From contig NZ_FONY01000008.1 in the NCBI RefSeq assembly GCF_900113045.1, forward strand, positions 1 to 64,000: a DNA stretch of 64,000 bases, written 5' to 3'. Source of the DNA: Thermoflexibacter ruber. Lineage in GTDB: Bacteria; Bacteroidota; Bacteroidia; Cytophagales; Thermoflexibacteraceae. A program made the position numbers and the translations under genes. Positions 1 through 54,683 of the stretch are shown here, one piece after another; position 1 is the first letter of the stretch, and every line of letters begins with the position of its first letter. The notes beneath the pieces were generated by a model. It was not told the origin of the DNA. It saw only the letters and a program-made list of their open reading frames with translations, and ran no database searches.

Positions 1-268
1 GTTCCAAAAGTTTAGGAAATAATGCTAAGTAGTTCTTCTTGACTATTTTATACCAAGCCTTCTCAGAATCGCAAACCATTTGACCGACAAGATTTAGACA
101 AATCACTTCACTATCCGAAAAAGTTGGTTTAGGTCCCGAACGTTCAACTAACTGACCGACTTCTTTGTAAATTTCATCTATAATGAAAAAAGTAAGGGTC
201 AGAAAATCTGATAAATTTAACTCTTTTATATTATCTTTGAATACTGAATCAATTGCGATTTGGTGCAT
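1..268 (-). CDS. IS982-type transposase, N-terminal part (cut by window edge)
   Basis: About 89 residues are visible, reading leftwards from an ATG at 268 and running off the window. The segment has the N-terminal look of IS982-family transposases: a helical stretch with IIDEIYKEV, then GPKPTFSDSEVICLNL and DSEKAWYKIVKKN, the 'SDSE' region before the DDE catalytic core. The catalytic aspartates lie outside the window, so activity cannot be judged. The coding frame is open and uninterrupted as far as it is seen. The start codon abuts one arm of a perfect 11-bp inverted repeat (269-307), which probably lies at or near the left end of the insertion sequence. No terminal repeat or target duplication could be confirmed because only one end is present. 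Confidence 0.72.
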   Translation of the reverse strand, partial: MHQIAIDSVFKDNIKELNLSDFLTLTFFIIDEIYKEVGQLVERSGPKPTFSDSEVICLNLVGQMVCDSEKAWYKIVKKNYLALFPKLLE

Positions 269-307
269 AGGTTATCTCTTTTTATGGTTGCACCTTAGAG
301 ATAACCT
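269..307 (-). promoter_or_regulatory. Perfect 11-bp hairpin just upstream of the transposase start codon
   Basis: AGGTTATCTCT (269-279) and AGAGATAACCT (297-307) are exact reverse complements separated by 17 nt. In the transposase mRNA the 3' arm contains the purine-rich AGAGATAACC just before the ATG (268-266), so a folded transcript would hide the ribosome-binding site. Many insertion sequences use such a hairpin to block translation from transcripts that read in from outside; that this applies here is inference. Confidence 0.55.
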
Positions 308-643
308 TTTTTACTGAAAATTCCAAACTAGCACAATCGGTATTATTTTCTCTGTTTATTCATTTCTTTTTAGCAATCTCATCTTCATACCCAAAACATT
401 AGGATTTAATATTTTCTTGTCTTAATATATCTATTTTTTTACCGACTTGCCGATTAAATAAGCCTATTTGTCTATTCCGAAAAATTAATTCAAACTAATG
501 CTGTTACTTTGTGTTTGTAATAACGAAGCAACAATTAAGCAACCGCGCCTTTTCACAATATCAGATGTCTAATTTTTACATATTCATTTAAAAACCATTT
601 AAAATTCACTATCGCATTTTCATTATCAAAAAAAATCAATACT
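308..643. other. Intergenic stretch between IS end and TonB-dependent receptor
   Basis: AT-rich, with no credible ORF. A box TTACTTTG (505-512) matches the Bacteroidota -7 consensus TAnnTTTG at 7 of 8 positions and could start the receptor transcript. No good -33 TTTG lies at the usual distance, so the promoter call is weak. Nothing else recognisable. Confidence 0.3.
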
Positions 644-3397
644 ATGCGTATTTTTATCCATTACAGATTATTGTTGCTTGTATTTTTCACATTTCTTGGC
701 TTAAACTTTTCTTTTGCTCAAACACTTACAGGAAAGGGCAAAATTTCTGGGGTTGTCATCGATTCTACCGACAGACAACCTGTATCATTCGCAACCGTTA
801 CGCTTACTTTAGTCAATTCTCAAAAACCTATTAGCGGTGCTGTAGCTGATGAAAAAGGACAGTTTACTATTAACAAAGTCCCTACAGGCGAGTACAATGT
901 GGCTATTAGTTTCATTGGGTTTAAGACGATTACTAAAACAGTAACCATAGAGGACAAAAAAGACAATGTCAATTTAGGTACAATTTATTTATATCCTGCT
1001 GTTACCGAACTAAAAGAAGTAACAGTAGAGGGACAAAAAGAACTTATTGAAGAGAAAGTAGATAGGACAGTATATAATGCAGAGCAGGATGCTACTTCAA
1101 AAGGTGGTGATGCAACGGACGTTCTTCGCAGAGTGCCTATGCTCACCGTTGATTTGGACGGGAATGTGTCTTTAAGGGGTAATCAAAACATCAGAGTATT
1201 AATTAACAACAAACCCTCAAGTATCATGGCAACCAGTTTAGCCGATGCCCTTAGACAAATTCCCGCCGACCAAATCAAATCTGTAGAGGTAATAACCTCT
1301 CCATCTGCAAGATATGATGCTGAAGGCTCAGCGGGTATCGTCAATATCATTACTAAGAAAACTACTATGCAGGGCTTGACTTTGGGAATCAACAACAGTG
1401 TGGGCTATCGTGGTTCTATGCTTGGCTTAAATGGCTCGCTCCGCACAGGAAAAGTAGGTTTTACTTTGGGTGGTTTTGGCAGGTCTGAATACAATGTAAT
1501 CGGTAATTTTGAAAATAGACAAAATACAGTTAATAGTATTGGTAATGAGCTGCTTACCATACAAAGTGCTGACACTCGTAGGCGAGGTTTGTGGGGACGC
1601 TATACGCTTGGCTTTGACTATGATATAGATAAGTACAATTCGCTAACAGCCTCTGTGCAGTTTGGGGTGAGAAACAATAGAAACTTCCAAGATGGCTTGC
1701 TGGCAAGAACTTTCCAAAACACCATTCTCCAAAATATCAATTTGAGAGATGTTGATATAAAAGATTTGTCCAATAACATTGATGCCAGCCTTTCTTATAT
1801 TCGTACTTATGAAAAGCCTCAGAAAGAGTTCAGCGTTTTAGCTTTATTCAGCAGAAATAATAGGACTAATGACTTCATCAACAATATTTTAAACCCAGAT
1901 TCAAGGGAAGTCATCAGTCGTTTGAAAAACTTGAACGACAGCTATAACCAAGAAGTTACCTTAGAAGTAAACTATCAGACACCTATCGGGAAAACACAAA
2001 TTTTAGAGATGGGGGCAAAGCAAATTATGCGTCAAGTTACCAGCGATTTTCAATATCTTTTTGCTACAGGAGCAACAGGAGAGTTTATTAGAAATACGAA
2101 TGCACAACTTTCTAATGTGCTTGATTATCTGCAAAATGTAACGGCTTCTTATCTTGCTTATACTTATGCTTCTAAGAGTGGGTACAGCCTTAAAACAGGT
2201 CTGCGCTATGAATATACACTCATAGATGCAAGTTTGAAAAACGAGCAAAAAGTAGAAATTCCTGACTATGGCGTATTAGTGCCAAGCATCAATCTTTCTA
2301 AGAAAATGAAGGGTGGCAATATTGTTAAACTTTCTTATAACCGCCGTATTCAAAGACCTTCTTTGCAGTTCTTAAACCCCAATATCCAAGCAGCTAATCC
2401 TTTGAATATTACCATAGGAAATCCTGCTCTCGACCCAGAGTTTACCAATAATTTTGAGTTAGGATATAGTACCTTTGTCAAAGGAGTTTCTTTGAACGTA
2501 GCTACTTTTGTTCGTAATACTAACAATGCCATTCAAAGTGTAAGAGATATTATTGGAGCGGATACTATTCGTACTACTTTTCAGAATATAGGAAAAGAAA
2601 ATGCTTACGGTTTCAACTTAAATATTAATATTAATGTAGGTAAGTTTAGTATAGGTACAGGTGGAGATATTTACTATGCTACTTTAAATAATAACGTACC
2701 TAATCCTATTTATAGGGCAAGCAATCAAGGTTGGGTTTACGGAGCGCGTTTGTTTGGAAATTATAAGATCAATGATAATTGGGCGTTGCAAGCGTTCTCT
2801 TTCTATCGTGGGAGAGAGGTACAGTTGCAAGGTATCAGAGGGGGATTTGGTATGTATAGCGTAGCTATTAATAGAGATTTCAAAAATAAGAAAGGAAGCA
2901 TAGGCTTAGGTATAGAAAACTTCTTTAACTTCAATGGGATTACTATTCGTAGCGAGTTAAACTCTCCTGTGCTTAACCAACAGAGCGTTAATGTCAATCA
3001 GAACCTAAGTTTTCGGGTGAACTTTAATTACCGTATTGGCAAGATGAGCTTTGATGCTCCTAAACGAAGAAGGTCTATTAACAACGATGACATGAAAAGT
3101 GAAGGAGGTGGCGATGGCGTCGGCGATGGCATGCAACAAGGTGGTGGAAACAATGGTGGAGGTCGTCCACAAGGCGTAAATGGTCAAGGGACAGGTCGTC
3201 CACAAGGAGGGCAAAACATGATGCAACAAGGCGGAGGTCGCCCACAAGGACAGGGAGGCAACCCTCAGTGGCAAGGGCAGGGTGGAAATACAGGAAAACC
3301 ACAAGAAGTGCCAAATCAAGACCAGAAAAAGAAGAAAAATGAGAAAGAAACTCCAAAGAAAGAAAAGCAAGAGGAAAAACCTAAGAATGAGGAGTAA
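644..3397 (+). CDS. TonB-dependent outer-membrane receptor, outer membrane beta-barrel family, with low-complexity tail
   Basis: 917 residues. Signal peptide at about 1-26 ending FSFAQ. Residues ~33-115 form a carboxypeptidase-regulatory-like beta-sandwich (GKISGVVIDSTDRQPVSFA, VAISFIGFKT). A plug domain follows (~127-235; DVLRRVPMLTVDLDGNVSLRG, then SVEVITSPSARYDAEGSAG), then a long beta-barrel of the OMP_b-brl_3 kind ending near FRVNFNYRIGKMSF (~804). This architecture is typical of Bacteroidota receptors that import ligands through the outer membrane with TonB energy; the substrate cannot be told. No SusD partner is adjacent. Unusual is the ~113-residue tail after the barrel: a basic patch (KRRRS), a Gly/Gln/Asn-rich segment with repeated GGRPQG units, then a Lys/Glu-rich end. 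It probably sits in the periplasm. The start is fixed by the signal peptide. Confidence 0.9.
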   Translation: MRIFIHYRLLLLVFFTFLGLNFSFAQTLTGKGKISGVVIDSTDRQPVSFATVTLTLVNSQKPISGAVADEKGQFTINKVPTGEYNVAISFIGFKTITKTVTIEDKKDNVNLGTIYLYPAVTELKEVTVEGQKELIEEKVDRTVYNAEQDATSKGGDATDVLRRVPMLTVDLDGNVSLRGNQNIRVLINNKPSSIMATSLADALRQIPADQIKSVEVITSPSARYDAEGSAGIVNIITKKTTMQGLTLGINNSVGYRGSMLGLNGSLRTGKVGFTLGGFGRSEYNVIGNFENRQNTVNSIGNELLTIQSADTRRRGLWGRYTLGFDYDIDKYNSLTASVQFGVRNNRNFQDGLLARTFQNTILQNINLRDVDIKDLSNNIDASLSYIRTYEKPQKEFSVLALFSRNNRTNDFINNILNPDSREVISRLKNLNDSYNQEVTLEVNYQTPIGKTQILEMGAKQIMRQVTSDFQYLFATGATGEFIRNTNAQLSNVLDYLQNVTASYLAYTYASKSGYSLKTGLRYEYTLIDASLKNEQKVEIPDYGVLVPSINLSKKMKGGNIVKLSYNRRIQRPSLQFLNPNIQAANPLNITIGNPALDPEFTNNFELGYSTFVKGVSLNVATFVRNTNNAIQSVRDIIGADTIRTTFQNIGKENAYGFNLNININVGKFSIGTGGDIYYATLNNNVPNPIYRASNQGWVYGARLFGNYKINDNWALQAFSFYRGREVQLQGIRGGFGMYSVAINRDFKNKKGSIGLGIENFFNFNGITIRSELNSPVLNQQSVNVNQNLSFRVNFNYRIGKMSFDAPKRRRSINNDDMKSEGGGDGVGDGMQQGGGNNGGGRPQGVNGQGTGRPQGGQNMMQQGGGRPQGQGGNPQWQGQGGNTGKPQEVPNQDQKKKKNEKETPKKEKQEEKPKNEE

Positions 3398-3404
3398 ACA
3401 AAGC

Positions 3405-3445
3405 TGATAAAGTTTCAAGCTCTGGTGGAGTTTGAAACTTTATCA
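3405..3445 (+). terminator. Long hairpin after the receptor gene
   Basis: TGATAAAGTTTCAA (3405-3418) pairs perfectly with TTGAAACTTTATCA (3432-3445), a 14-bp stem with a 13-nt loop, eight bases past the stop codon. There is no strong T-run behind it, so it may be a 3'-end stabiliser or processing site rather than a strict intrinsic terminator. Confidence 0.55.
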
Positions 3446-3479
3446 TAAATAAGTTTAATAAACACAAAAATAATCCTTT

Positions 3480-4286
3480 ATGAAAATGAAAAAGTTATTT
3501 TTTCTTTTCTCACTTGTTTCTATATTAGGTATGCAGGCATTTGCTCAAGATTTTGCCTTAGCCCAATTAGAGAAATCGCCTCGCCATCATGAGTGGGTAG
3601 AGGTAAAGTACGGAAATAGAACGGTTCATTGCTTTGTAGTATATCCTGAAAAGCCCAAGAATACGCCTGCCGTCATCGTCATTCACGAAAATCGCGGTTT
3701 GACAGATTGGGTAAGAAGTCTTGCTGACCAAGTAGCGGCAGAGGGATACATTGCTATAGCACCTGATTTACTTTCTGAGTTTAGCGAAAGTAAAAAACGT
3801 ACCAGTGACTTTATCAATTCCGACTCAGCAAGGAATGCACTTTCTCAGCTAAAACCAGAACAAGTTATTAATGACATTAATGCAGCGCAAGCATATATAG
3901 CTAAGTTGCCTTCATGCAACGGAAAAACGGCTATCATGGGCTTCTGCTGGGGTGGTGGGCAGTGCTTCCGCAGTGCTACCAATAACCCTAATATCAGTGC
4001 TGCTTTGGTTTTTTATGGAGGTTCACCAGACAAAGCTGAGGACATAGCCCGCATCAAAGCACCCGTGTACGGGTTCTATGCAGAGAACGACCAACGCATC
4101 AATGCTATGATTCCCAAAACAGAAGAACTCATGAAGGCAGCAAACAAAAAATATGAATACGAAATTTACAAGGGAGCAGGACATGCCTTTATGCGACTGG
4201 GAGATGACCCTGCGGGAAGTGCGGAAAATAAGCAAGCAAGAATAGATGCTTGGCAGAGAATCAGAAAAATTTTAGAAAAGATGTAG
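3480..4286 (+). CDS. Secreted dienelactone hydrolase family protein
   Basis: 268 residues with a signal peptide (MKMKKLFFLFSLVSILGMQ, cut near AFAQ), so exported. An alpha/beta-hydrolase fold of the dienelactone hydrolase family: IHENRGLTDW near residue 75 (oxyanion region), the nucleophile motif GFCWGGGQ with Cys156, Asp204 in ENDQR, and His235 in GAGHAFMR, giving the Cys-Asp-His triad of the family. Classical members open dienelactone rings in chloroaromatic degradation, but the broad family includes many uncharacterised hydrolases, and no catabolic genes lie nearby, so the true substrate is unknown. The gene follows the receptor by ~80 bp, after a hairpin. The next gene begins only 14 bp beyond its stop, suggesting co-transcription. 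Confidence 0.88.
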   Translation: MKMKKLFFLFSLVSILGMQAFAQDFALAQLEKSPRHHEWVEVKYGNRTVHCFVVYPEKPKNTPAVIVIHENRGLTDWVRSLADQVAAEGYIAIAPDLLSEFSESKKRTSDFINSDSARNALSQLKPEQVINDINAAQAYIAKLPSCNGKTAIMGFCWGGGQCFRSATNNPNISAALVFYGGSPDKAEDIARIKAPVYGFYAENDQRINAMIPKTEELMKAANKKYEYEIYKGAGHAFMRLGDDPAGSAENKQARIDAWQRIRKILEKM

Positions 4287-4300
4287 TACAATTTTATGTA

Positions 4301-5113
4301 ATGGCTATACATACACTTAAAAATAGACTTTTCTCATTTTCGTTTTTCGTTGCGTTTGTTAGTTTAACTTTTCACTTGGAAACGAGTGAAAAGTTTTTTT
4401 TTAATCATGAAACGCTTATGCAAAAAATCTGTGCTGCTTATCCAGACCATTTTGAAGGTTATGAAGGCAATTTTTTGATTTGGAAAGACGGTACAAAAAT
4501 GCTTTTTGATGATGGAAAAGAAAAAGACAAGCAGGCTTTACTCGACTCGGCAGACTTAGAAGACCAATTCAAGATACCTTATCCCAAAGGAAAAGATTTT
4601 TCTATTCCTCAAAAAGGACAAGACCCCGGAAGAGTACGCTATGAGCCTTTCTTTAGAAAAATGTATGGGAACTCCCCCCAAGAAGTCCAGAGGAAACTTA
4701 CTACTATCACTTGGCTTCCTAAAACACTGAATATCAAATTACAAGTAAGTACCGTAAATCAGATTCACCAAAAAATGAAAGCCATTTCTTCCGAATTAGA
4801 GGAACTTTTAGTAAAAACACCTCACCTTACAAAATACCTTCAAAAGCCCGCAGGCACGTTTAATTGGCGATTTATCAGCGGGACCAATCGTCTAAGTACG
4901 CATAGCTTCGGCATGACCATAGACCTCAATGTTACCTATTCTAACTATTGGCAGTGGGATAATAAAACTACCGATGAGAATGCCTTGCTTACTTACCGCA
5001 ACCAAATTCCTATGGAGATAGTGAGTATTTTTGAAAAATACGGCTTTATTTGGGGCGGAAAGTGGTATCACTATGATACTATGCACTTCGAGTATAGACC
5101 CGAATTACTTTAA
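4301..5113 (+). CDS. M15-family D-Ala-D-Ala carboxypeptidase-like protein, secreted
   Basis: About 270 residues from the ATG at 4301. An in-frame start at 4250 would overlap the previous gene by 37 bp and place a charged stretch before the signal sequence, so 4301 is preferred. The N-terminus is a signal peptide or anchor (LFSFSFFVAFVSLTF). Near the C-terminus are the zinc-peptidase motifs of family M15: STHSFGMTIDLN (His and Asp zinc ligands in the SxHxxGxAxD pattern) and YHYDTMHFEYRP (catalytic region and last His ligand). Known relatives (VanY, L-alanyl-D-glutamate peptidases) cut peptidoglycan stem peptides. A cell-wall role in the periplasm is likely; the exact bond cut is not determined by sequence. 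It probably shares a transcript with the hydrolase upstream and converges on mscL. Confidence 0.85.
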   Translation: MAIHTLKNRLFSFSFFVAFVSLTFHLETSEKFFFNHETLMQKICAAYPDHFEGYEGNFLIWKDGTKMLFDDGKEKDKQALLDSADLEDQFKIPYPKGKDFSIPQKGQDPGRVRYEPFFRKMYGNSPQEVQRKLTTITWLPKTLNIKLQVSTVNQIHQKMKAISSELEELLVKTPHLTKYLQKPAGTFNWRFISGTNRLSTHSFGMTIDLNVTYSNYWQWDNKTTDENALLTYRNQIPMEIVSIFEKYGFIWGGKWYHYDTMHFEYRPELL

Positions 5114-5121
5114 GTAAAAAT

Positions 5122-5520
5122 CTATTTTTTCAGCAAATCTCTGATTTCTGCCAAGAGCTTTTCAGAAGGAGTAGGTTCTGGTGGAGGTGCAGGCACCGCT
5201 TCCTCTTTCTTTTTCAAAGCATTCATGGCTTTTACTACCAAAAACATTACAAAGGCTACTAAGAGAAAATTAATAACAGTTTGGATAAATTTCCCGTAAC
5301 TAATCACAACAGCAGGTTTACTTTCCGTTGCTTCTCTAAGCGTAATTCCCAAGCTGGCAAAATCCATGTCCCCAATTAGTAAACCAAGTGGAGGAGTGAA
5401 AATATCGGCTACAAAAGAACCAGTAACAGAAGCGACAGCCCCTCCCATGACTACGCCTACGGCAAAATCTACGAGGTTGCCTTTGATAGCAAACTCTCTA
5501 AATTCACTGATAAATCCCAT
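5122..5520 (-). CDS. mscL: Large-conductance mechanosensitive channel MscL
   Basis: 132 residues, the usual length. Residues 1-14 form the amphipathic N-terminal helix (MGFISEFREFAIKGN). TM1 follows with the family signature NLVDFAVGVVMGGA, then the periplasmic loop starting after FTPPLGLL. TM2 is ~75-98 (FIQTVINFLLVAFVMFLVV), followed by a KKKEE cluster, a proline-rich linker and the C-terminal helix SEKLLAEIRDLLKK that makes the cytoplasmic bundle. MscL is a homopentamer in the inner membrane that opens under extreme tension to release solutes on osmotic downshock. It reads towards the M15 peptidase with 8 bp between their stops. The aquaglyceroporin gene 730 bp away is also osmotically relevant but is on the other strand. 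Confidence 0.97.
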   Translation of the reverse strand: MGFISEFREFAIKGNLVDFAVGVVMGGAVASVTGSFVADIFTPPLGLLIGDMDFASLGITLREATESKPAVVISYGKFIQTVINFLLVAFVMFLVVKAMNALKKKEEAVPAPPPEPTPSEKLLAEIRDLLKK

Positions 5521-5586
5521 ATTTTTCTAAGGTTTAATATGATTAATACAAAATTGAATAACTTTTCTAGGTAATAATTTTAAAAG

Positions 5587-5658
5587 GCTGATTTTACAGA
5601 TTAGACGGATTTTCGCCAATGAGTCACTTGAAAATTGCGTTTTTTCGGTAAAATCAGC
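5587..5658. repeat. 11-bp perfect inverted repeat upstream of mscL
   Basis: GCTGATTTTAC (5587-5597) is repeated inverted as GTAAAATCAGC (5648-5658) around a 50-nt centre. Right beside it ATTTACA-TTC-TGTAAAT forms a second small hairpin (5662-5678). Both lie in the ~170 bp between mscL and the MITE-like element. Could be an operator, a structured leader, or the ends of another small decayed element. Confidence 0.4.
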
Positions 5659-5691
5659 ATTATTTACATTCTGTAAATACTCAATAATAAT

Positions 5692-6048
5692 TTATACTCA
5701 ATCAAAAGTGTTTTTGAAATTTTCTTTACTCCAAAGTCCCTGTTCTCTGACACTTCCTGTGTAAAACTTATGTAAGCATTGGACTTTCACCTGCTCTTGA
5801 CTAACACCGTAGGTGTGCTATTTTTGTAGAAAATAATGAATATATCCACATAAAACCGCTTAGCGGTGGCATATCTCACGCCTACGGTCTTGCTGTAGGT
5901 GGCTTGGGCTTACTCTTTTCTAACAAAATGACAGCCCTATGGGCTTAAAGTTAGATGTAGTATTGTTCATTGGAAAAAGTGTCAGATAACCAAAGTTCCT
6001 TTCTCAGCAAGAGAAAGGGATTGAAAAATCATTTTATTTTAAGTATAG
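5692..6048 (+). repeat. MITE-like element, copy 1 (~357 bp)
   Basis: One of three related non-coding elements in the window (also 7549-7804 and 54331-54683). The outer ends are imperfect inverted repeats beginning TTATACTC... and ending ...AAGTATAG. A stronger inner inverted repeat is GTTCTCTGACACTT (5742-5755) against AAGTGTCAGATAAC (5977-5990). Inside are small GC-richer hairpins with 3-nt loops or nearly so: ACACC-GTA-GGTGT (5804-5816), ACCGC-TTA-GCGGT (5855-5867), CCTAC/GTAGG (5881-5899) and AGCCC-TAT-GGGCT (5933-5945). No transposase is encoded. Copies 1 and 3 share about 50 bp of flank beyond the inner repeats on both sides, so the element proper reaches the outer repeats. Confidence 0.75.
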
Positions 6049-6252
6049 ATGAATTAATAATCAAGGTTGAGAAAATAATCCATTGAAAATAAAACTGTAA
6101 AGGCACTAATATTACTTAAAATATTAAGCAAATATAGAAGGAAAGTCGTAAAATACAATTTTATAGGAAAAAATGTTAAAAACTTTTCCAATTACTTTGG
6201 CAAATCATTAATTTTAGCCAAGTTAATTATCACCATTTAAACCGTTTAAAAT

Positions 6253-6957
6253 ATGACTTCATTTTTAGGAGAATTAGTTGGCACGATGTTGCTCATCATA
6301 CTTGGCGATGGAGTAGTGGGGGGCGTTGTCCTCAAAGAAACCAAATCACATAATTCAGGCTGGATAGTAATTACCTTAGGCTGGGGCTTGGCAGTAGCTA
6401 TTGCCGCTTATACTGCGGGCAAGTTTAGTGGGGCGCATCTGAACCCTGCCGTAACCTTAGGACTTGCGGCTGTGGGGCAGTTTGCTTGGGAGAAAGTGCC
6501 TACTTATTGGCTGGCTCAATTCATCGGAGCATTTTTAGGGGCAGTAGTCGTCTATCTGCACTATCTTCCTCACTGGGCAAAAACAGAAGATAAAGATGCA
6601 AAATTAGGCGTATTCTGCTCTTCACCTGCTATTAGAAATCCTTTAACAAACTTTATCAGTGAAGTCATAGGAACTTTTGTCTTGGTTTTTGGTCTTTTAG
6701 CCATAGGGGCAAATGAGTTTGCTCAAGGGTTAAATGTATTGATTGTGGGCTTTTTAATTGTGAGCATTGGGCTTTCTTTGGGCGGTACAACAGGCTATGC
6801 TATCAATCCTGCCCGCGATTTAGCCCCACGATTGGCACATTTTTTACTGCCTATCCCTGATAAGCGAGATTCCGACTGGGGATACGCTTGGATTCCTGTA
6901 ACTGCCCCTTTGATAGGTGGAGTTTTAGGAGCGATAGTTTATACTTCACTCTTTTAA
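6253..6957 (+). CDS. glpF: MIP-family aquaglyceroporin (glycerol facilitator type)
   Basis: 234 residues with six hydrophobic segments and the two half-helix signatures of the MIP family: SGAHLNPAVTLG (Asn64) and GYAINPARDLAPR (Asn185). Asp189 straight after NPAR is the marker that separates glycerol facilitators from strict water channels, so passive transport of glycerol and small polyols across the inner membrane is expected. No glycerol kinase or dehydrogenase gene is adjacent, which is why the symbol is tentative. The next gene, a LEA-like lipoprotein, starts 12 bp after the stop and is probably co-transcribed. Upstream, TTACTTTG (6192-6199) is a 7-of-8 match to the TAnnTTTG -7 box. The MITE copy ends 200 bp before the start and points the same way. 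Confidence 0.92.
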   Translation: MTSFLGELVGTMLLIILGDGVVGGVVLKETKSHNSGWIVITLGWGLAVAIAAYTAGKFSGAHLNPAVTLGLAAVGQFAWEKVPTYWLAQFIGAFLGAVVVYLHYLPHWAKTEDKDAKLGVFCSSPAIRNPLTNFISEVIGTFVLVFGLLAIGANEFAQGLNVLIVGFLIVSIGLSLGGTTGYAINPARDLAPRLAHFLLPIPDKRDSDWGYAWIPVTAPLIGGVLGAIVYTSLF

Positions 6958-6969
6958 AATATTACGCTA

Positions 6970-7545
6970 ATGAAAAAATACTTTATTCTTGCTTGTGGCT
7001 TACTTGTGATTTTACCTGCCTGTCAGACCTTGCAAATGATGCAAAACTTTGCCAAATGCGAGTTTCGCCTGGCTCAGCTGTCCAATATCAATGCTTTGGG
7101 TATTGATATGACAGGCAAGCGTAGTTTTTCTGATTTCAGTTTATTAGATGCAGGGAAGGTGGTGCAAGCCTTAGCTGGCAATCAGTTTCTACTCAATTTT
7201 GTAGCAAATGTCGAGGTTAGAAATCCCAACGCCGAACCCGCAGGATTGAATCGCATGGATTGGATTTTGATGGTCGATAACAAAGAAGTGCTAAACGGTA
7301 CACTAAACCAAGCGGTCAATGTTCCTGCCAATAACGGCACGACCATCATGCCTTTGAATCTTTCTATAGATTTGAAAAAGATTTTTGCTAATCAAAGCAG
7401 AGATGAAACTTTGAGTTTGGCTTTTGACTTAGCTCAACAAGGAAATAATACGACAAGGCTCATGCTAAGGGTAAGACCGTATATCAATATCGGTGGGGCA
7501 GAACTTGCTTATCCCGGATATTTGAATATTAAAAAAGATTTTTAA
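6970..7545 (+). CDS. LEA14-like lipoprotein
   Basis: 191 residues. Lipoprotein signal with lipobox LPAC (Cys18). The body resembles the LEA type 2 / LEA14 (WHy) fold: a ~100-residue beta-sandwich with FVANVEVRNPNAEPAGLNRMD, whose NPN plus following strand is typical, then an NGTLNQAVNVPANNGTTIMPL region where such domains have alternating strands. LEA14-type proteins are linked to desiccation and water stress, but bacterial lipoprotein versions have no settled role. It lies 12 bp behind the aquaglyceroporin, so a shared role in osmotic or envelope stress is reasonable inference. Its 3' end is immediately followed by the second MITE-like copy. Confidence 0.65.
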   Translation: MKKYFILACGLLVILPACQTLQMMQNFAKCEFRLAQLSNINALGIDMTGKRSFSDFSLLDAGKVVQALAGNQFLLNFVANVEVRNPNAEPAGLNRMDWILMVDNKEVLNGTLNQAVNVPANNGTTIMPLNLSIDLKKIFANQSRDETLSLAFDLAQQGNNTTRLMLRVRPYINIGGAELAYPGYLNIKKDF

Positions 7546-7548
7546 GAT

Positions 7549-7804
7549 ATTTTTCTGGTTATCTGATATTTTCTGCGTAAAACTATGTAAGTGGCGGATT
7601 TTAGTCTACCATTGACTAACACCGAAGATGTGCTATTTTTGTAGATAATAATGAATGTACCCACATAAAACCGCGTAGCGGTGGCATATTTCACGCCTAT
7701 GGGCTGCTCTTTTCTACCAATATGACAGCCCTACGGGCTTAATTTACACTTAGTATTGCCCATTTGCTAACTCCACAAAAAGTGTCAGACAATCAGAGAA
7801 AATA
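7549..7804 (+). repeat. MITE-like element, copy 2 (core form, ~256 bp)
   Basis: Ends TATTTTTCTGGTTATCTGAT (7550-7569) and an inverted partner around GTGTCAGACAATCAGAGAAA (7782-7801). The interior repeats the same order of features as copy 1: an ACACCGAAGATGT variant of the first hairpin (7619-7631, pairing weakened), TATTTTTG box (7634-7641), ACCGC-GTA-GCGGT (7670-7682) and AGCCC-TAC-GGGCT (7727-7739). It lacks the long outer arms of copies 1 and 3, and 21 bp in the interior is missing relative to copy 1. It sits between the convergent LEA-like and Asp-box genes. Confidence 0.72.
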
Positions 7805-7827
7805 GAACATCGGAATTACTCATCTTA

Positions 7828-8832
7828 TCAAGGCACGAATAAGACCTTCCAAACTCTGCCATCACACTCTCCTATGCAATGAAAATTTTTCCCTCCATTC
7901 GTACTTTTGTAAAGTCCTCCCTCCAAACACCCTACAAAAATAATTTCAGGTTTCTCAGGGTAGATAGCAATGCTTTTAATGCTTTTCCCTTTCAATTCAT
8001 TATCAAGTAGTTCCCATTTCTCCCCGCAATTTTCTGTTTTGTAAAGCCCAGATTGATGCCCCCCACAATATGCAATATTTGGATTTTGAGGGTGCAGAAC
8101 TACCTCATAAATAGTTTTGCTATTCAAGCCATTATTCCTGCTTTGCCATGTTTTACCAGCATCTTGGGAGATGAATACCCCATTTTCTTCTGTAGCACAA
8201 AAAAGAAAATCTACTTTATTAGGAGAAGCGACTAAGGAGTGAATTTCCTGCCCTGCTAAAGCTAAGGTTTGCCAGCTTTCTCCTAAATCTTTGCTAACAA
8301 CAATGCCATCGGCTGTTCCTGCCAATAAATGTTTGGGATTTTTAATAGAAAAAAGTAGGCTGGTCATAAAAGTCTGGCTGACAGGTTTTAGTCCTTTGTT
8401 TTTGCATTGCCAACTTTCTCCTGCATCTGTGCTTTTCCATACTCCCGCAGAGGTCAAGGTGTATAGTATTTGAGGGTAGTAAGGGTGTGCATAGATTCTA
8501 AGGGCATCGCTTACTTCCCAATTTGTCAGGATTTTCCAAGTTTTTCCGTCATCTTTGCTTTGCATTACACCGTTTAAGCAGGCTAAAAAAATAGTCTTCC
8601 CCTCTAACTTTTCTTGTATCATTATGTCCCAAACGATATTGTTTTTCCAGCCTAAGTGCTGCCAAGTAGTAGCATTAGGCATACCCACATACAAGCCTTT
8701 TGTGTCGTTATCTCGTCCAATCAAGTTCCCTGACTTGCGCGCATTCACGATAAAATACAATTTTGGCTCTTGCAAGAAAAAGAAGGTGAAAAAAGCCCAA
8801 CTATAAATTAGAAACCATAGACTAAAAATCAT
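7828..8832 (-). CDS. Asp-box (BNR/Ycf48-like) beta-propeller protein
   Basis: 335 residues from the ATG at 8832. In-frame ATGs at 8853 and 8877 would overlap the upstream SDR gene. After an N-terminal hydrophobic stretch (FSLWFLIYSWAFFTFFFLQ), probably a signal or anchor, the protein has six Asp-box motifs SxDxGxTW: SKDDGKTWKIL, STDAGESWQC, SKDLGESWQTL, SQDAGKTWQS, TENCGEKWEL and STNGGKNFHC. They alternate with strands such as GVWKSTD, giving a sialidase/photosystem-assembly-factor type propeller. No sialidase arginine triad or other catalytic residues are evident, so it is more likely a binding or scaffold protein than an enzyme. Last gene of a minus-strand run after a pyruvyl transferase and an SDR. 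The N-terminal codons fall in a low-complexity repeat (8801-8853). Confidence 0.75.
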   Translation of the reverse strand: MIFSLWFLIYSWAFFTFFFLQEPKLYFIVNARKSGNLIGRDNDTKGLYVGMPNATTWQHLGWKNNIVWDIMIQEKLEGKTIFLACLNGVMQSKDDGKTWKILTNWEVSDALRIYAHPYYPQILYTLTSAGVWKSTDAGESWQCKNKGLKPVSQTFMTSLLFSIKNPKHLLAGTADGIVVSKDLGESWQTLALAGQEIHSLVASPNKVDFLFCATEENGVFISQDAGKTWQSRNNGLNSKTIYEVVLHPQNPNIAYCGGHQSGLYKTENCGEKWELLDNELKGKSIKSIAIYPEKPEIIFVGCLEGGLYKSTNGGKNFHCIGECDGRVWKVLFVP

Positions 8833-8853
8833 AAATCGTAAACTATAAATCAT
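8801..8853. repeat. Low-complexity 'ATAAATCRTAAAC'-type repeat at a gene boundary
   Basis: Degenerate units such as CTATAAATTA, AAAATCATAAATCGTAA and ACTATAAATCAT follow one another across the stop of the SDR gene and the start of the Asp-box gene. Their translation gives the odd N-terminus of the latter. The pattern looks like a slippage-prone simple repeat; it blurs the choice of start codon. Confidence 0.4.
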
Positions 8854-9577
8854 GCAGAACAGAACTAATCCCGCCATCTAATTGTAGGTTTGCCCCGTTG
8901 ATAAACTTAGCTTCTTCTGAGGCTAAAAATAAAGCTAACCGAGCCACTTCCTCTGGATAGCCAATGCGTTGGACGGGGTGTAATCTTTTTAAGGCACTCA
9001 AAGCGCTCTCATCGTTATTGAATCCTGCTCTGAGCATATCCGTTTCTATTGCCGCAGGGCTAATGCAATTTACCCTTACTCTACCTTGCAAATCTACTGC
9101 CATTGCCTTAGTTAGCCCAACTAAGGCACTTTTACTGGTAGCGTAGCTCACAAAGCGAGGTTTGGTAAGTTGCTGGTGAATACTTGCAATATTGACGATA
9201 GACCCTTTTGCCTTTTCTATCATAGGCAAAAAAAGTTGGCTAAGGAGCATAGGAGCGGTCAGATTGACATTCATGGTTTCGTACCAATCTGCCAATTTGA
9301 TATTTTCTGTATGGTCTAATAACTGCACTGCCGCATTATTGATAAGTACTTCCAGATGAGAGGTTTGCAAGCTAACTTTCTCTAAAATTTCTTGCTTGTA
9401 GTTATTTTCTTTGCAGAATCTATCCAAGTCTATGTGCATAGCAAAGTTGCAATGAGGAGCGGTATCTTGTATCCTGATGTCTGTGCCTATAACAAACCAA
9501 TTTTCTCCTTGAAAAACTTTGCATAATGCCTGCCCTATGCCTCCTAATGCACCTGTAATTAATGCCGTTTTTTTCAT
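8843..9577 (-). CDS. Short-chain dehydrogenase/reductase (SDR)
   Basis: 244 residues, the classical SDR length. N-terminal TGALGGIG is the glycine-rich NAD(P)-binding TGxxxGxG motif, and IGTDIR ends beta-2, with a basic residue favouring neither cofactor clearly. NNAA stabilises the fold. The catalytic set is Ser in IVNIASIHQQ, Tyr and Lys in SYATSKSAL. The C-terminal PVQRIGYPEEVARLALFLAS and NGANLQLDGG are standard for the family. A cytoplasmic NAD(P)-dependent oxidoreductase of unknown substrate. The start overlaps the stop of the upstream pyruvyl transferase gene by 4 bp (ATGA), so the two are translationally coupled, suggesting work on a sugar or polysaccharide precursor. Confidence 0.9.
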   Translation of the reverse strand: MKKTALITGALGGIGQALCKVFQGENWFVIGTDIRIQDTAPHCNFAMHIDLDRFCKENNYKQEILEKVSLQTSHLEVLINNAAVQLLDHTENIKLADWYETMNVNLTAPMLLSQLFLPMIEKAKGSIVNIASIHQQLTKPRFVSYATSKSALVGLTKAMAVDLQGRVRVNCISPAAIETDMLRAGFNNDESALSALKRLHPVQRIGYPEEVARLALFLASEEAKFINGANLQLDGGISSVLHDL

Positions 9578-10812
9578 GATTGATGTGTCTGTAATATTTT
9601 GATGATGTTGTTTTTTTGCTTAAAAAGTGTTTCTAACTGAATTTGCTCGTATTGGCTCGCTAATATATCTAAATTATAAAATAAGCAAAGCATGTCGTTC
9701 ACGGTTTCATTTCTCCAAAAATCTACACAATAGCTTTCCAAACCAATATTTTTAAAAAAGCCTCGTTTTTTGCCCTGCAAACCAATCCCAATGACGATAC
9801 TACCTGCAGAAAATGCCAAAATAGTAGCATGCAAGCGAGACGCCACGACCACATCGTGTTTCTCATAAATTTCATTTAACATTCCCAAACTTTTAGGATT
9901 AAAAGTTTGTAAACCATATCTTTGTCCTATTTTTTTTACTAATTCGTAATCTCCATCATCTCCCGTAGTAAATAGACTTACAACAAACTTTTTTTCTACT
10001 CTTTGGTCGTAAAGCAAATGCTCTATCATTTCGCACAAATGCCTTTCATACATTTCTTGCTTTTCCTTGTACTCACCTATATATCGCATTAAATTGATTG
10101 CCACTCGCACCTCATTTTTATGATTGATTTTCAAGTTTTCTTGCTTTCTATAGTAAATATGGTTTAAGTCAAGCGCAAAATCCCCAAAGATAGGAAACTG
10201 CCTTCCAAAATTCTCAAACAACATCTGAGCAGTATTTTCATCTCTAACCGCTACCAATTTGGCACTCTCTAAAAATTTTTTGGTAATATACCCACTAAAC
10301 CAATCATATTTGCTACTACTACTGCACCCTAAGCAATAGAAATCTTTTTTAGTCCATCTTTTCAATGTCAATAAAGAAAGCATAGAAATCGTAAAGTGAA
10401 AACTTACATTTTCTAATAAAGCACCTCCACCTACGACGATAAACTTGCAATCTCTCATTTGATTGGCTAACTTTTTCATAGATTTCAAATGCCTAAAAAA
10501 TCTAATGCAGTTCTTGAAAAAAGTAAAAAAGAAAGCAGGCAGTATTTTTTTTAGAAAAGAAACTTTGTACTGCTTTGAGAGAGATACAGGAGGTGGACTT
10601 TCCTCTTTTAAAAAATATTTTTCAATATCATTTTCACTTTTGACATGACCTTGATAAGAAAAACTACCAAAATTAAACAATTTGACTTGGTAGCCTAAAT
10701 CTAAAAAAAATTGGCTTGCATTTGCCCCAATTGCCTTATCACCCAAGTTTTGTGTATTCCATTCTCCAAAGATAGCTACTGTGTTGAAATGATTGAGATG
10801 ATTATCAAGCAT
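9574..10812 (-). CDS. Polysaccharide pyruvyl transferase family protein
   Basis: 412 residues, cytoplasmic. N-terminal VAIFGEWNTQNLGDKAIGAN matches the 'N-x-GD' beginning of the polysaccharide pyruvyl transferase family. The middle has FIVVGGGALLEN, and the C-terminal half holds the strongest signature, DVVVASRLHATILAFSAGS followed by a glycine-rich strand and KKRGFFKNIG. Family members transfer pyruvate from PEP to sugar residues of exopolysaccharides or secondary cell-wall polymers, or act on polysaccharides in related ways. No polysaccharide export cluster surrounds it here; its partners are the overlapping SDR gene and the Asp-box gene downstream. It seems the first gene of this minus-strand transcript, with 119 bp to the divergent SpoIIAA-like gene. 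Confidence 0.82.
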   Translation of the reverse strand: MLDNHLNHFNTVAIFGEWNTQNLGDKAIGANASQFFLDLGYQVKLFNFGSFSYQGHVKSENDIEKYFLKEESPPPVSLSKQYKVSFLKKILPAFFFTFFKNCIRFFRHLKSMKKLANQMRDCKFIVVGGGALLENVSFHFTISMLSLLTLKRWTKKDFYCLGCSSSSKYDWFSGYITKKFLESAKLVAVRDENTAQMLFENFGRQFPIFGDFALDLNHIYYRKQENLKINHKNEVRVAINLMRYIGEYKEKQEMYERHLCEMIEHLLYDQRVEKKFVVSLFTTGDDGDYELVKKIGQRYGLQTFNPKSLGMLNEIYEKHDVVVASRLHATILAFSAGSIVIGIGLQGKKRGFFKNIGLESYCVDFWRNETVNDMLCLFYNLDILASQYEQIQLETLFKQKNNIIKILQTHQS

Positions 10813-10931
10813 CTATTCAAACTTACTTAACAATAAAAACGAATCAAAGACGGGTAAATCATAAAGTTTGGAGGTAAAAACGAAGTAGTATTTTTACAAA
10901 GATAGGAAATTCATGCAGGATTTTGGGAAAT

Positions 10932-11393
10932 ATGCCAATAGATTTTTATCTTGCTGAGAAAATAGTACTTCTACCTTATATGGAACTTCTTTTTGAAAAT
11001 GTAGCAAAAACAGCGTCTATTTTTTTCTATCCTGAAGCAGATATGGGCAGACTGAAATTAGCTGGAAAAATAGACACTGATGATTTTAAGACTGCTTATG
11101 ATAAGTTATTGGAATATGCAGTAGAAAAAAAATTACATAAAGGCATCTTAGATTTGACAGATTTGCAATATAGTCCACCCTTAGCAAGGGCGTGGCTGGC
11201 GACTAATTTTGCAAAAAGAGCATTGAAATTCTTAGACAAAAGCCCTATCATCGGCATAGTCAAATCCCAAAATGCTTTTCAAAGGCTTGCCGCCTCTGCC
11301 GTCATCAGTTCTTTGGGTATGCTTGGAAGTAAAATCAAAATTGAGTTTTTTGAAACTTTGGCAGAAGCGGAAAATTGGCTAAAAAATCAATAA
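10932..11393 (+). CDS. SpoIIAA/STAS-like small protein
   Basis: 153 residues from the ATG at 10932 (a second possible start is the ATG at 10980). The pattern of strands and helices, with GRLKLAGKIDTDDFKTAYD, KGILDLTDLQYSPPLARAW, PIIGIVKS and a final helix AEAENWLKN, fits the SpoIIAA-like (STAS-superfamily) domain seen in many Cytophagales. The conserved phosphorylatable Ser of true anti-sigma antagonists is not obvious. SpoIIE phosphatases elsewhere in this window normally act on phosphorylated STAS proteins, so a regulatory link is conceivable but not shown. Cytoplasmic. It is followed 42 bp later by the SecA-domain gene on the same strand. Confidence 0.5.
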   Translation: MPIDFYLAEKIVLLPYMELLFENVAKTASIFFYPEADMGRLKLAGKIDTDDFKTAYDKLLEYAVEKKLHKGILDLTDLQYSPPLARAWLATNFAKRALKFLDKSPIIGIVKSQNAFQRLAASAVISSLGMLGSKIKIEFFETLAEAENWLKNQ

Positions 11394-11435
11394 ATCAATT
11401 ACTTAGAATATATCGCTCACTAAATCTATTTTCCT

Positions 11436-12071
11436 ATGTTTTCACTATTAAAAAAACTATTTAGTAGCCCTCCTATCATTCCAGAGAAAGTATGGGCTAT
11501 GAAAGCCTATAAGTATCAAGGATTGTATCAGGACATTCTCCAAGCCCATAAAAATGGCGAAAAAGTATTGATTTTTACCCAATTTGAGAAAACATTGGAG
11601 GAAGTCTGCTTTGTCTTGGAGCAGAAAAAACTAAATTTTTATAGGTTTAGTAAAGGAGAGGAGGTAGCTATCCTCAACTTTAACCAACTTGCCATTTTTC
11701 AAGCCAATGCTTTGCAGAAAAATACCGTCAAAGACCTGCAAAAACTACTCCATCAAGCCCCTGTCCAACTTTTTATCATTGAGCATCACCCGCTCAGAAC
11801 CAATGATGAGGAACTGATAGCTACGCTAAGGGAAATCGCCCCTCAGTCCCAACCTGTTTTTTACACTTCTCTGGAAGATGCCGTCTTAGCCCAATTTGCC
11901 ACAGACAATTTGAAGCAACTCTTGCATAAACTTGGTATGAAGCCCGAGGAGAGTTTTCAGCACAAACTCATCAGCAATGCCATCATCAAAGCACAAGAAA
12001 AATTAGCTTCCGAAGCCAAAGGCAATCGCCTTACCTACTCCGCAGAAGAATGGTTCAACGTTAATTTATGA
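11436..12071 (+). CDS. Stand-alone degenerate SecA helicase-2 (NBD2) domain protein
   Basis: 211 residues, no signal peptide. The order of motifs follows the second nucleotide-binding domain of SecA. AYKYQGLYQDILQAHKNGEK (24-43) corresponds to SecA 'K...vv.eI...H.kGqPvLvGT', VLIFTQFEKTLEEVCFVLEQ (44-63) to its '.vLvGT.siekSe.ls..L', FIIEHHPLRT (113-122) to 'viGteRHeSrR', FYTSLEDAVLAQF (142-154) to 'FylSLEDdLmr.F', and FQHKLISNAIIKAQEKLA (174-191) to 'i.H.miskaIe.AQkKvE'. The arginine-rich finger segment (DNQLRGRSGRQGD in SecA) is replaced by DEELIATLREIAP and there is no Walker A/B domain, so ATPase activity is not expected. It may be a regulator or a structural relic. Neighbours are a SpoIIAA-like and two YbjN-like genes. 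The SecA relationship was read by eye and needs a profile search. Confidence 0.6.
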   Translation: MFSLLKKLFSSPPIIPEKVWAMKAYKYQGLYQDILQAHKNGEKVLIFTQFEKTLEEVCFVLEQKKLNFYRFSKGEEVAILNFNQLAIFQANALQKNTVKDLQKLLHQAPVQLFIIEHHPLRTNDEELIATLREIAPQSQPVFYTSLEDAVLAQFATDNLKQLLHKLGMKPEESFQHKLISNAIIKAQEKLASEAKGNRLTYSAEEWFNVNL

Positions 12072-12156
12072 TTTTTTACATTTCTTTTGTCTTTTCTTTG
12101 TTTTTTTTAGTAAAATTCTTACTTTTAAGCCAAACACCAAAACCTACAATAAGCCA

Positions 12157-12567
12157 ATGGAACACAATGTCAAACGCAAAGAGTACTTTGTTAAATTAGC
12201 AGAAAGATTAGACGGAACTTACATAGAATATACAGATGAAATCTGCATCATCAGCCTACGCCTGCCAGACGGAAGGTCGCAAAGTGTCAGAGGTTTTTTC
12301 AAGCAAAGAGGGCAAGACCTTATGCTTATGCTCATGTCCAAAGTTTGTTTCTTAGATGAGTATCCTAATGTGGACTTTAGAGCCTTGATAGAGGAAAATA
12401 ATCACTTGCACTTTTCCAAGTTCGTCATTCATCATGACTATTTGGAAGTCTTAGCAGACGTACATTTCTCTGACGTTACCATAGAGTTCTTAGAACACGT
12501 AGCTTTGGAGGTCGCCCAAACCGCAGACGATTGGGAATACAAAATCACAGGGCAAGATATTCACTAA
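12157..12567 (+). CDS. YbjN-like small cytoplasmic protein
   Basis: 136 residues without signal or membrane segment. The alternation of strands and helices (YIEYTDEICIISLRLPDGR, FFKQRGQDLMLMLMSKVC, FSKFVIHHDYLEVLADV, FLEHVALEVAQTADDWEY) looks like the YbjN / type-III-chaperone-like fold, but similarity is weaker than for the protein at 12707-13162, so it is a tentative call. Start at the ATG before EHNVKRKEYFVK. It follows the SecA-domain gene by 85 bp on the same strand and ends just before a strong hairpin terminator, so it is the last gene of that transcript. No enzymatic residues recognised. Confidence 0.45.
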   Translation: MEHNVKRKEYFVKLAERLDGTYIEYTDEICIISLRLPDGRSQSVRGFFKQRGQDLMLMLMSKVCFLDEYPNVDFRALIEENNHLHFSKFVIHHDYLEVLADVHFSDVTIEFLEHVALEVAQTADDWEYKITGQDIH

Positions 12568-12593
12568 ACCTGTTTTGATTGAAGTAATTATTC

Positions 12594-12635
12594 AATGAGT
12601 TATAAGTTTTTTCCAACTTATAACTCATTTTTTGT
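12594..12635 (+). terminator. Strong intrinsic terminator between convergent genes
   Basis: AATGAGTTATAAGTT (12594-12608) pairs perfectly with AACTTATAACTCATT (12615-12629), a 15-bp stem with a 6-nt loop followed by TTTTTTG on the plus strand. It ends the plus-strand run 10932-12567 and may also help stop the facing YbjN gene. Confidence 0.85.
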
Positions 12636-12706
12636 AAGTACAGTAAGGAAATCCACATTCACACCCAACAGTCTTGTAAAACCCTCTGGGTATGAATGTA
12701 GATTAT

Positions 12707-13162
12707 TTAAAAATCAGTAGGACGCTCTCCTGCGGGTGGGGCGGAAAACTTCTGCTTCAGTTGGTCATCTAAGGTATCTGCCCACCACTCTAAGTCAGCA
12801 ATGCAGGTAGATAGCTCATCATAGTCCATGCCTACCACATCTCTTTCGTAAGTAGCATATACCCAATTCCCCAACACAGAAAGTTTTACCCCTAATTTGC
12901 TATCATTCAGTTCTAAGAGATAACGATAAAAATACGTTTCATTGTAGGTAGGTATTTCCATGAGAGGGGAAAAAATGCGAAGATAATAGCGTATCGCTCC
13001 ACTGCTCAACGGTACGGATTGTACGAATACTTGGATACTTGCTGAGCCTATGCGCCAGTTCCATGTATTTTTCATGCCATCATAGCACTTGCTCTTGTCT
13101 AAACCTACGGAAGTAACGTAGCGTTCTATCATTGCATTGACACTTGCGACAATATCATTCAT
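12707..13162 (-). CDS. YbjN domain-containing protein
   Basis: 151 residues, cytoplasmic. The sequence follows the YbjN (DUF1790-type, type III secretion chaperone-like) pattern: an N-terminal helix, WNWRIGSASIQVFVQSV, YYLRIFSPLMEIP, YFYRYLLELND, KLSVLGNWVYATYERDVVGMD and a C-terminal helix ADLEWWADTLDDQLKQKF. In other bacteria YbjN proteins are small regulators or chaperone-like adaptors with no enzymatic activity; their partners are not well established. It points towards the YbjN-like gene at 12157-12567, the two being convergent across a terminator. The upstream neighbour, 116 bp away and divergent, encodes a secreted protein of unknown function. Confidence 0.75.
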   Translation of the reverse strand: MNDIVASVNAMIERYVTSVGLDKSKCYDGMKNTWNWRIGSASIQVFVQSVPLSSGAIRYYLRIFSPLMEIPTYNETYFYRYLLELNDSKLGVKLSVLGNWVYATYERDVVGMDYDELSTCIADLEWWADTLDDQLKQKFSAPPAGERPTDF

Positions 13163-13277
13163 AATTTGCTTGTTTTAGAATTAAAAAAAATAAATTTGAA
13201 TTCTATTTTACATTGTAGCCCTGATTTTCCAAATCAGGTAATCAAAATCCAAAGTTGAAAATTAACACTTTAAAAAT

Positions 13278-14294
13278 ATGAAAAAATTTTTCTTTTATTT
13301 CCTATTCATCTTAATATTTAGTTTGAATTGTTTTGCACAAAAAAAAGGCAATCTAAAATCCATTCAAACAAAGGTCGAGGTCACTAAAAGCATCATCAAT
13401 ACTTTCAGTTTTCGTAACCGCTACTATTTTTATCAGTTAGAGCAAGACAGCAAAGACCCTAACAAATGGCTTATGTACATAGGCATAGTTACAGACGAAC
13501 ACAATGCCAATCTTGCCGCTTCGGTCAAAATCTTTAGTACCGATGTATATATCCTAACAGGGGGCAGCAAGCTCGCTAATGTGCGTATCCAAGCCGCTAA
13601 GCCTTTTGACTATTCTTGGGCGGTTTCTCGCGCTAACTTCTTAGAAACAAGTTTCTACTGGACTGACGGCACAGTGAAATATGCTCTTTTTGGTTCGCAA
13701 ATGCAAAATGAGTATCCCTCTCCTGTTGATGAGAAATTTATCGTTACTAAGTTCAACCCTGCCAAACTCACCTTTGCCGATGGTGTAAAAATAGCTGTCA
13801 ATCAATTCATCATGCAGTTTGACAAACTCTTTCAGTATCCTGAAAATGAAGATAAGAAACCTCAATTAGAAACTTTTGAGGGAGCGATAACATTTAAAAA
13901 CGAAAAATATGACTACGAACTTCGCCGCAGTTTCTTTAATGTAGGCGATGACAACTTAGCTATACGCAAGGGCAAAGATGGATTGATTTATAATACTTTG
14001 GTACGTATCAAAGATGAAAAAGCAAGCACTGGAAAAATCACGATTGACATTCATCACGTTACACAAAATGGCTTAGCTTGGAGCGTTTACGCTTCTGATT
14101 ACCTCAGAGCAGTTTTTGACTACCAAACAGGTACGATTACTTACCAACAAGTAGGCTCTGCGCTGCCTTACCCCGATGAGAACGAAGAGGTAGTAAAGGA
14201 ATTTAAACCTAATGAACTTCCTTTGGAAAAAGCCTTTGCAATCGCTATGCAAAACTTAGTAAAGAGGTACAACGAAGCCCTGCCGAGATACTGA
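13278..14294 (+). CDS. Secreted protein of unknown function
   Basis: 338 residues. Clear signal peptide MKKFFFYFLFILIFSLNCFAQ, so periplasmic or exported. The mature part is rich in beta strands with many Tyr, Phe and Lys residues (SFRNRYYFYQLEQDS, TSFYWTDGTVKYALFG, YDYELRRSFFNVGDDNLAI, ITIDIHHVTQNGLAWSVYA). No catalytic motif, lipobox or repeat was recognised, and I do not know this family. Two similar segments (..KFNPAKLTFADGVKIAVNQF.. and ..FKPNELPLEKAFAIAMQNL..) occur near residues 163 and 310, each a short strand followed by a helix, which suggests an internal duplication. Single-gene transcript: its stop codon overlaps the base of a strong terminator hairpin. Confidence 0.65.
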   Translation: MKKFFFYFLFILIFSLNCFAQKKGNLKSIQTKVEVTKSIINTFSFRNRYYFYQLEQDSKDPNKWLMYIGIVTDEHNANLAASVKIFSTDVYILTGGSKLANVRIQAAKPFDYSWAVSRANFLETSFYWTDGTVKYALFGSQMQNEYPSPVDEKFIVTKFNPAKLTFADGVKIAVNQFIMQFDKLFQYPENEDKKPQLETFEGAITFKNEKYDYELRRSFFNVGDDNLAIRKGKDGLIYNTLVRIKDEKASTGKITIDIHHVTQNGLAWSVYASDYLRAVFDYQTGTITYQQVGSALPYPDENEEVVKEFKPNELPLEKAFAIAMQNLVKRYNEALPRY

Positions 14295-54330: not shown

Positions 54331-54683
54331 TTATACTCCATCAAAAGTGTTTTTGAAATTTTCATTACTCCAAAGTCCCTGTTCTCTGACACTTCCTGTG
54401 TAAAACTTATGTAAGCATTGGACTTTCAGACTAATACCGTAGGTGTGCTATTTTTGTAGAAAATGAATGAATATACCCACATAAAACCGCGTAGCGGTGG
54501 CATATTTCACGCCTACGGCGTTGCTGTATGCGGGCTTACTCTTTTCTACAAAGATGACAGCTCTACGGGCTTAAAGTTAGATGTAGTATTGTTCATTGGC
54601 TGACTCCACCAAAAGTGTCAGAGAACCAAAGTTCCTTTCTCAGCAAAAGAAAGGGATTGAAAAATCATTTTATTTTGAGTATA
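54331..54683 (+). repeat. MITE-like element, copy 3 (~353 bp)
   Basis: Outer inverted repeats TTATACTC (54331-54338) and GAGTATAA (54677-54684) are perfect; inner ones GTTCTCTGACACTT (54380-54393) and AAAAGTGTCAGAGAAC (54611-54626). Internal hairpin ACCGC-GTA-GCGGT (54486-54498) and the others are kept, including the TATTTTTG box (54449-54456); a single-base change alters the frame near AAAATGAATGAA. It lies between two minus-strand genes, pointing in the plus direction. Confidence 0.75.

Follow-up and report, generated by a model that had tools for sequence, protein, structure and literature searches.

A MITE family with nested ends and an IS200-like hairpin module in Thermoflexibacter ruber

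According to the available parts of the published reports, RUP of Streptococcus pneumoniae is an IS630-Spn1-dependent MITE of 107 bp, and small repeats inserted in one another are known for it (PMC2229807, PMC3049150). The PATEs of Haloquadratum walsbyi are portrayed, in the accessible sections of their description, as terminal-only IS605-type elements without a transposase, some of which arose by deletion of the core, and MITEs have been found inserted into them (PMC3119063).

The family described here was analysed in a window of 64,000 nucleotides (the whole stretch of DNA under study) and in the host genome. Its outer layer resembles RUP, as depicted in the accessible text, in measuring ~100 bp without the core, in having the ends of a resident IS630-family element, in its TA target, and in its intergenic location (PMC2229807, PMC3049150). 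Unlike RUP, the outer MITE appears to carry a second, independently mobile MITE that itself holds a third element, and to multiply as a composite; the available parts of the RUP reports do not mention a nested set multiplying as a unit (PMC2229807, PMC3049150). The inner layer is similar to PATEs, as far as their available description goes, in being transposase-free and in near-terminal palindromes that match complete IS200/IS605-type elements (PMC3119063). It differs from them in its bacterial host and in having four hairpins that mirror each other and are linked by TTTGTAGAAAA, and here the gene-less element lies inside MITEs, whereas there MITEs lie inside PATEs (PMC3119063). As in REP/BIME repeats with their RAYT, going by the accessible part of the source, the palindromes are related to Y1 enzymes and tagged with GTAG, but the module stands beside IS200-type tnpA genes and not beside the RAYTs of the host genome (PMC3733652). 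No bacterial three-layer nested MITE multiplied as a unit was recognised among the titles and abstract openings covered, in which subscription journals are thinly represented. The copies very probably constitute such a three-layer nested MITE, the composite of which would have been multiplied by an IS630-family transposase acting in trans.

Copies in the window and in related genomes

The original prediction placed three copies of a MITE family, with ends of two nested types, at 5692-6048, 7549-7804 and 54331-54683, and all three are present there (reading of the sequence; BLAST search of the window with copy 1). Copy 3 aligns with copy 1 over 54331-54683 (89%, E 8e-124) and copy 2 over 7558-7758 in two pieces (82-85%, E 3e-33 and 3e-9), similarities that are far above chance. 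The inner ends of copy 2 are degenerate (GGTTATCTGATATTTT / AAGTGTCAGACAATC). The features are as follows, with the layers named as they are read below.

5693-5694, no strand: TA on the left of copy 1, putative target dinucleotide (present in 20 of the 21 copies with both ends)
5695-6045, plus strand: copy 1, putative outer IS630-type MITE with the core inside (BLAST, flank alignment, sequence)
5733-5740, plus strand: AAAGTCCC, left half of the 8-bp duplication attributed to core insertion, copy 1
5741-5991, plus strand: putative core MITE (second layer), copy 1
5800-5949, plus strand: third layer, putative four-hairpin module of IS200 type without a gene, copy 1
5992-5999, plus strand: AAAGTTCC, right half of the 8-bp duplication with one change, copy 1
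6046-6047, no strand: TA, putative target dinucleotide, right of copy 1
7557-7794, plus strand: copy 2, core only, without outer arms (flanking 8-mers ATTTTTCT / AGAGAAAA mismatched)
7615-7743, plus strand: putative IS200-type module, copy 2 (covariance model)
54332-54333, no strand: TA, putative target dinucleotide, left of copy 3
54334-54681, plus strand: copy 3, putative outer IS630-type MITE with the core inside
54372-54379, plus strand: AAAGTCCC, left half of the duplication, copy 3
54380-54627, plus strand: putative core MITE, copy 3
54430-54575, plus strand: putative IS200-type module, copy 3 (covariance model)
54628-54635, plus strand: AAAGTTCC, right half of the duplication with one change, copy 3
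54682-54683, no strand: TA, putative target dinucleotide, right of copy 3

The statement that no copy encodes a transposase held for copies 1 and 2, which no open reading frame of at least 80 aa overlaps (ORF list for positions 1 to 14,000 of the window). The expectation of many copies in the genome was borne out: in the host assembly (5.5 Mb, 123 contigs), copy 1 as query found at least 42 places, with the best 40 of 111 candidates scored, and at least 37 copies are distinct. For the latter count, L010/L024 and L022/L023 were each merged as contig-end repeats of one copy on account of their common flanks, as were L016/L026 (two contig starts with equal module scores), one copy split between overlapping rows (C75:141438 and 141611) was counted once, and a 23-bp stray row was taken out. 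Among the best 12 candidates per genome, copy 1 gave short partial matches in 8 of 58 relatives and a full-length match in none; under the same scope, two genomes of the same genus (one 62% complete) yielded no match. Plasmid and phage collections returned merely matches of 21-22 nt (E 0.8). A reading of the copies as vertically conserved UTRs does not fit their mixed flanks or the result for the two same-genus genomes, one of them 62% complete. As predicted, the copies form a MITE family whose ends are of two nested types.

The outer MITE, the core and their nesting

The outer ends were studied in 21 copies picked because their alignment comes within a few bases of either end. In these copies the similarity breaks off at the same two positions, which contradicts the absence of fixed ends named as a refuting outcome. 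TA adjoins the outer end on the left in 20 copies, on the right in 18, and on both sides in 17, with mixed bases beyond. No longer target duplication of the outer element exceeded shuffles in the 21 copies. Flanking TA without a longer duplication is the pattern of IS630/Tc1-type elements. RUP, which depends on IS630-Spn1, displays the TA pattern likewise, according to the part of its description available (PMC2229807). The genome is AT-rich, and TA could be part of the element instead of its target. Twenty of the 21 composite sites cross no open frame of at least 300 nt when the flanks are joined, and the remaining one lies 50 nt inside a frame edge.

In the host genome, ends of a DDE_3 / IS630-family gene occur at 10 contig ends, and an 11th place, on C54, is decayed; a multi-copy IS630-family IS is thus broken at contig ends. 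The C-terminal fragment has IS630 as its best NCBIfam match (78.8 bits, with a cut-off of 100 bits set for the whole protein) and lies above the cut-off of Pfam DDE_3; the internal copy on C75 is a fragment only. All 10 IS630-bearing contigs carry the end TATACTCAATAAAAATTG. Out of 24 bases of this end, 21 match copy 1 and 20 match copy 3, against a window mean of 6.9 and next-best places in the window of 19, 18, 17 and 17. The outer MITE and the resident IS have terminal inverted repeats in common on the transposase-end side, the right side being the one read from C-terminal fragments at contig ends. The outer arms are, judging from the flanking TA and this terminus, an IS630-type MITE, and the full transposon with the same ends that was to be sought is represented by a partial IS630-family IS with a matching terminus at 10 contig ends. 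IS630-type ends with other interiors were also found in relatives (149 pattern matches in genome G003, 40 in G025, control 0). A different repeat of ~110 bp with IS630-type ends and the interior GGCGAACATTCCTGTTCGCC was noticed at three loci of G003 (L060, L062, L063).

The core measures ~230-260 bp and has the ends GGTTCTCTGACACTT...AAGTGTCAGAGAACC. As predicted, it exists alone: eight copies in the genome, including copy 2 of the window, are devoid of outer arms. With boundaries placed by eye beforehand and nine lengths tried, the 8-bp flanks of these eight agree at 44 of 64 positions versus 27.4 +/- 4.5 after shuffling (2 of 2000 as high). Lengths of 5-7 and 10-12 showed nothing, 9 a shoulder (77/2000), and 4 a weak signal (157/2000). 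Perfect 8-bp duplications border L043 (AATTAGTT), L034 (ATAAAAAA), and L036 (AAAATTAG); L039 and L031 agree at 7 and 6 of 8 positions. L037, L033, and L038 (copy 2 of the window) are alike at 4, 2, and 1 positions and therefore show no duplication. Target-site duplications, proposed as a check, are thus probably TA for the outer element and 8 bp for the core, the latter seen as a group with three of eight perfect. On this evidence the core appears to be a second MITE with fixed ends and an 8-bp target duplication.

All places that match the core end with no more than one mismatch fall within known copies of the host genome (positions inspected), and a core-like end with two mismatches occurs at four loci (L089-L092). 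Every core seen among the host copies contains the IS200 module. A transposase gene with core ends was sought in the host genome among the IS256, ISL3, IS1595 and DDE_Tnp_1 families, and none was found. An IS256 origin of the core, to which we took a TGTGTAAAA stretch as a pointer, was rejected with 0 transposase matches in the host assembly, and an ISL3 or IS1595 origin was likewise rejected with 0 matches each. For DDE_Tnp_1 (IS4/IS5-like), no paired core end appeared at 24 loci, scanned with up to four substitutions in 16, with three weak stray matches and many loci cut by contig ends. A multi-copy DDE_Tnp_1 IS with the end AATTCACGTTA occupies L162-L179, mostly contig ends, and breaks the assembly. 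The exact core end, scanned in a collection of genome contigs, matched once, on a Lewinella contig of which 760 bases around the match were inspected. There, L094 4876-4991 spans ~118 bp between inverted ends that resemble those of the core (GGTTCTCTGACACTTTTTGTG / ACAAAAATTGTCGGAGAAGGAAC); it may be related to the core or be a chance match.

How core and outer MITE came together is recorded in the 8-mer AAAGTCCC, one strand of a hairpin in the outer MITE. Counted over 23 distinct rows per side, nested cores have this exact 8-mer as their left neighbour in 13 rows and as their right neighbour in 13 (one copy supplies two of the right rows), and the others are one or two changes off. Four outer MITEs lack a core (L077, L078, L079, L088); aligned over 94-96 bases with the arms of window copies 1 and 3 after joining, they show 78-88% identity. 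Three contain AAAGTCCC once and L088 has AAAGTTCT instead. A fifth, L083, is of another subfamily and outside this comparison. Since the 8-mer is single in core-less MITEs and double around nested cores, the core appears to have jumped into AAAGTCCC. In a midpoint-rooted tree of 31 cores (23 nested and 8 core-only; the short nested row L044 was dropped beforehand), the nested cores are set apart from the others by a branch with support 99/95, and the labels nested and core-only change once versus 7.2 times after shuffling (0 of 500). Identity is 92% among nested cores versus 86% among the eight core-only ones. With the midpoint as the only root, calling the nested cores a clade requires the root to fall among the core-only copies. 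From the duplicated 8-mer and the single grouping, it follows most simply that a single insertion at AAAGTCCC brought the core into the outer MITE and that the composite then multiplied.

The original prediction had left open whether a small element inserted into another or whether the arms are co-mobilised flanks. Old flanking sequence made mobile together with the core, without any insertion into an outer MITE, would also make the nested copies group as one, arms and core having always been together. Core-less outer MITEs with the same ends at four places, 78-88% identical and with the 8-mer or its variant once and not twice, speak against it, and this origin of the arms is extremely improbable. 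Insertion of one small element into another is the alternative favoured by the duplicated 8-mer, the four core-less MITEs and the single nested clade.

The hairpin module

The mini-hairpins with 3-nt loops noted in the original prediction are real and look like remnants of an IS200-type element. The module spans ~130-150 bp and follows the plan hairpin 1 - TTTGTAGAAAA - hairpin 2 / hairpin 3 - TTTTCTACAAA - hairpin 4. A covariance model was built from 23 of 31 module rows, leaving out L003, L005, L011, L014, L016, L017, the half-length L020 and the opposite-strand row of L039, and a search with it found the module in 9 of 29 genomes, the host included. Three loci of sister genomes (L098, L100 and L120) have a gene for a 153-aa Y1 transposase (tnpA) enclosed by four hairpins on this plan. 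At L122 (Y1 gene of 155 aa), a module half is present on the 5' side only and the 3' side is without a typical half, so this element looks one-sided. All four genes match the NCBIfam IS200 model with 70-85 bits (cut-off 55) and stay below the RAYT cut-off. When their non-coding flanks were compared with 18 chosen modules, 144 aligned pieces were obtained, where 20 base shuffles gave 0.05 on average, and the 5' flank of L122 is 78% identical over 73 nt (E 2e-11) to the host core L036. Given this homology and the hairpins around tnpA, the module is best read as the two halves of an IS200-type element without tnpA. In the host genome itself no IS200 tnpA was found, only two RAYT-type genes.

The hairpins admit other readings. 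In one of them, the interior functions as an RNA or as a single-strand DNA device, its conserved structure being maintained by the host or by another element, and the MITE ends do no more than disperse it. The occurrence of the module in 9 of 29 genomes agrees with that, as do compensatory changes in the stems across genera: 120 double-change cells were counted versus 42 +/- 5 after shuffling (0 of 500; best slid control 25), in sequences found with a model that rewards pairing and so favours this result. The MAFFT alignment used comprised 25 sequences, 3 from the host and 22 of 73 matches, the latter chosen by best strand and without repeats, with a few more left out. As IS200-type transposases read hairpins, elements of this type need such covariation. 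Among the 23 host copies, moreover, covariation is not clearly above shuffles (3 pairs, 73/500) and helix 4 is unpaired in ~20% of cells, and positions 5000-8500 of the window gave no Rfam match above the gathering score (one match, E 0.74, far below it). A functional device is accordingly improbable, and the hairpin structure is one kept in the history of the family and drifting inside the composite. The palindromes with GTA loops in inverted pairs and the two RAYT-type Y1 genes of the host would suit REP/BIME-type repeats spread by RAYT, as would L117 (G003), where ~600 bp separate a hairpin with TTTGTAGAAAA from a Y1 gene that exceeds the IS200 type in length. Neither host RAYT (L107, L119) is flanked by the unit, both standing between other palindromes, which leads us to reject them as drivers of the module; across 30 loci scanned, the Y1 genes directly beside the unit are of IS200 type in all four cases. 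A RAYT-driven spread is very improbable on these grounds, and the IS200-type reading of the module is retained.

L107 exceeds the RAYT cut-off and L119 reaches 77.5 bits against 80. Both genes (L107 1310-2090, L119 1000-2000) lie between palindromes of their own, CTGCGTAGAGT... and AACAGTT...AACTGTT, which are unlike the module. At L121 (G014), a variant of the unit lies ~250 bp from a Y1 gene.

Proposed history

Mobility of all the layers is what we infer from sequence comparison, and the following order of events is suggested. An IS200-type element with a Y1 transposase would have lost tnpA, leaving its two non-coding halves (~130-150 bp). We infer that the core captured this module and not the other way round. 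The module-bearing core of ~230-260 bp would then have moved alone, presumably by a transposase that makes 8-bp duplications, and would have jumped once into AAAGTCCC of an IS630-type MITE of ~100 bp. Finally, the IS630-family transposase of the genome may have multiplied the composite in trans, mostly into intergenic DNA, by acting on the outer ends TACTC...GAGTA, bordered by TA on either side.

Each layer is of a known kind, and the set shows unusually clearly how small gene-less elements stack; that an outer MITE is able to carry and multiply inner ones is illustrated by the composite. As core-less, core-only, and composite forms occur in one genome, the sequence itself reveals in which order the last insertion took place. 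The link of a four-hairpin repeat, present in 9 of 29 genomes including the host, to IS200-type elements helps annotation.

The module is also found inside other inverted ends, of the GCTATTAAGCTAAG type in G009 (L126, L142, L135, L051) and of the TTTGA/TCAAA type in G005 (L127) and in four host copies (L151-L154), which suggests repeated capture. That it is portable cargo, wrapped several times within this bacterial family by unrelated ends (GGTTCTC and TTTGA/TCAAA-type in the host, GCTATTAAGCTAAG in a sister genus) and kept because it lets composites move by two or three routes, single-strand as well as double-strand, is an unlikely extension of this. No empty module site was found that would show insertion at a short fixed target without target duplication, and sequence changes at the 5' edge of the module were seen in L032 and L042. 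In these two copies (near 1024 in L032, near 1081 in L042), the left parts are alike and differ from all other copies, with known sequence resuming at the 5' edge of the module.
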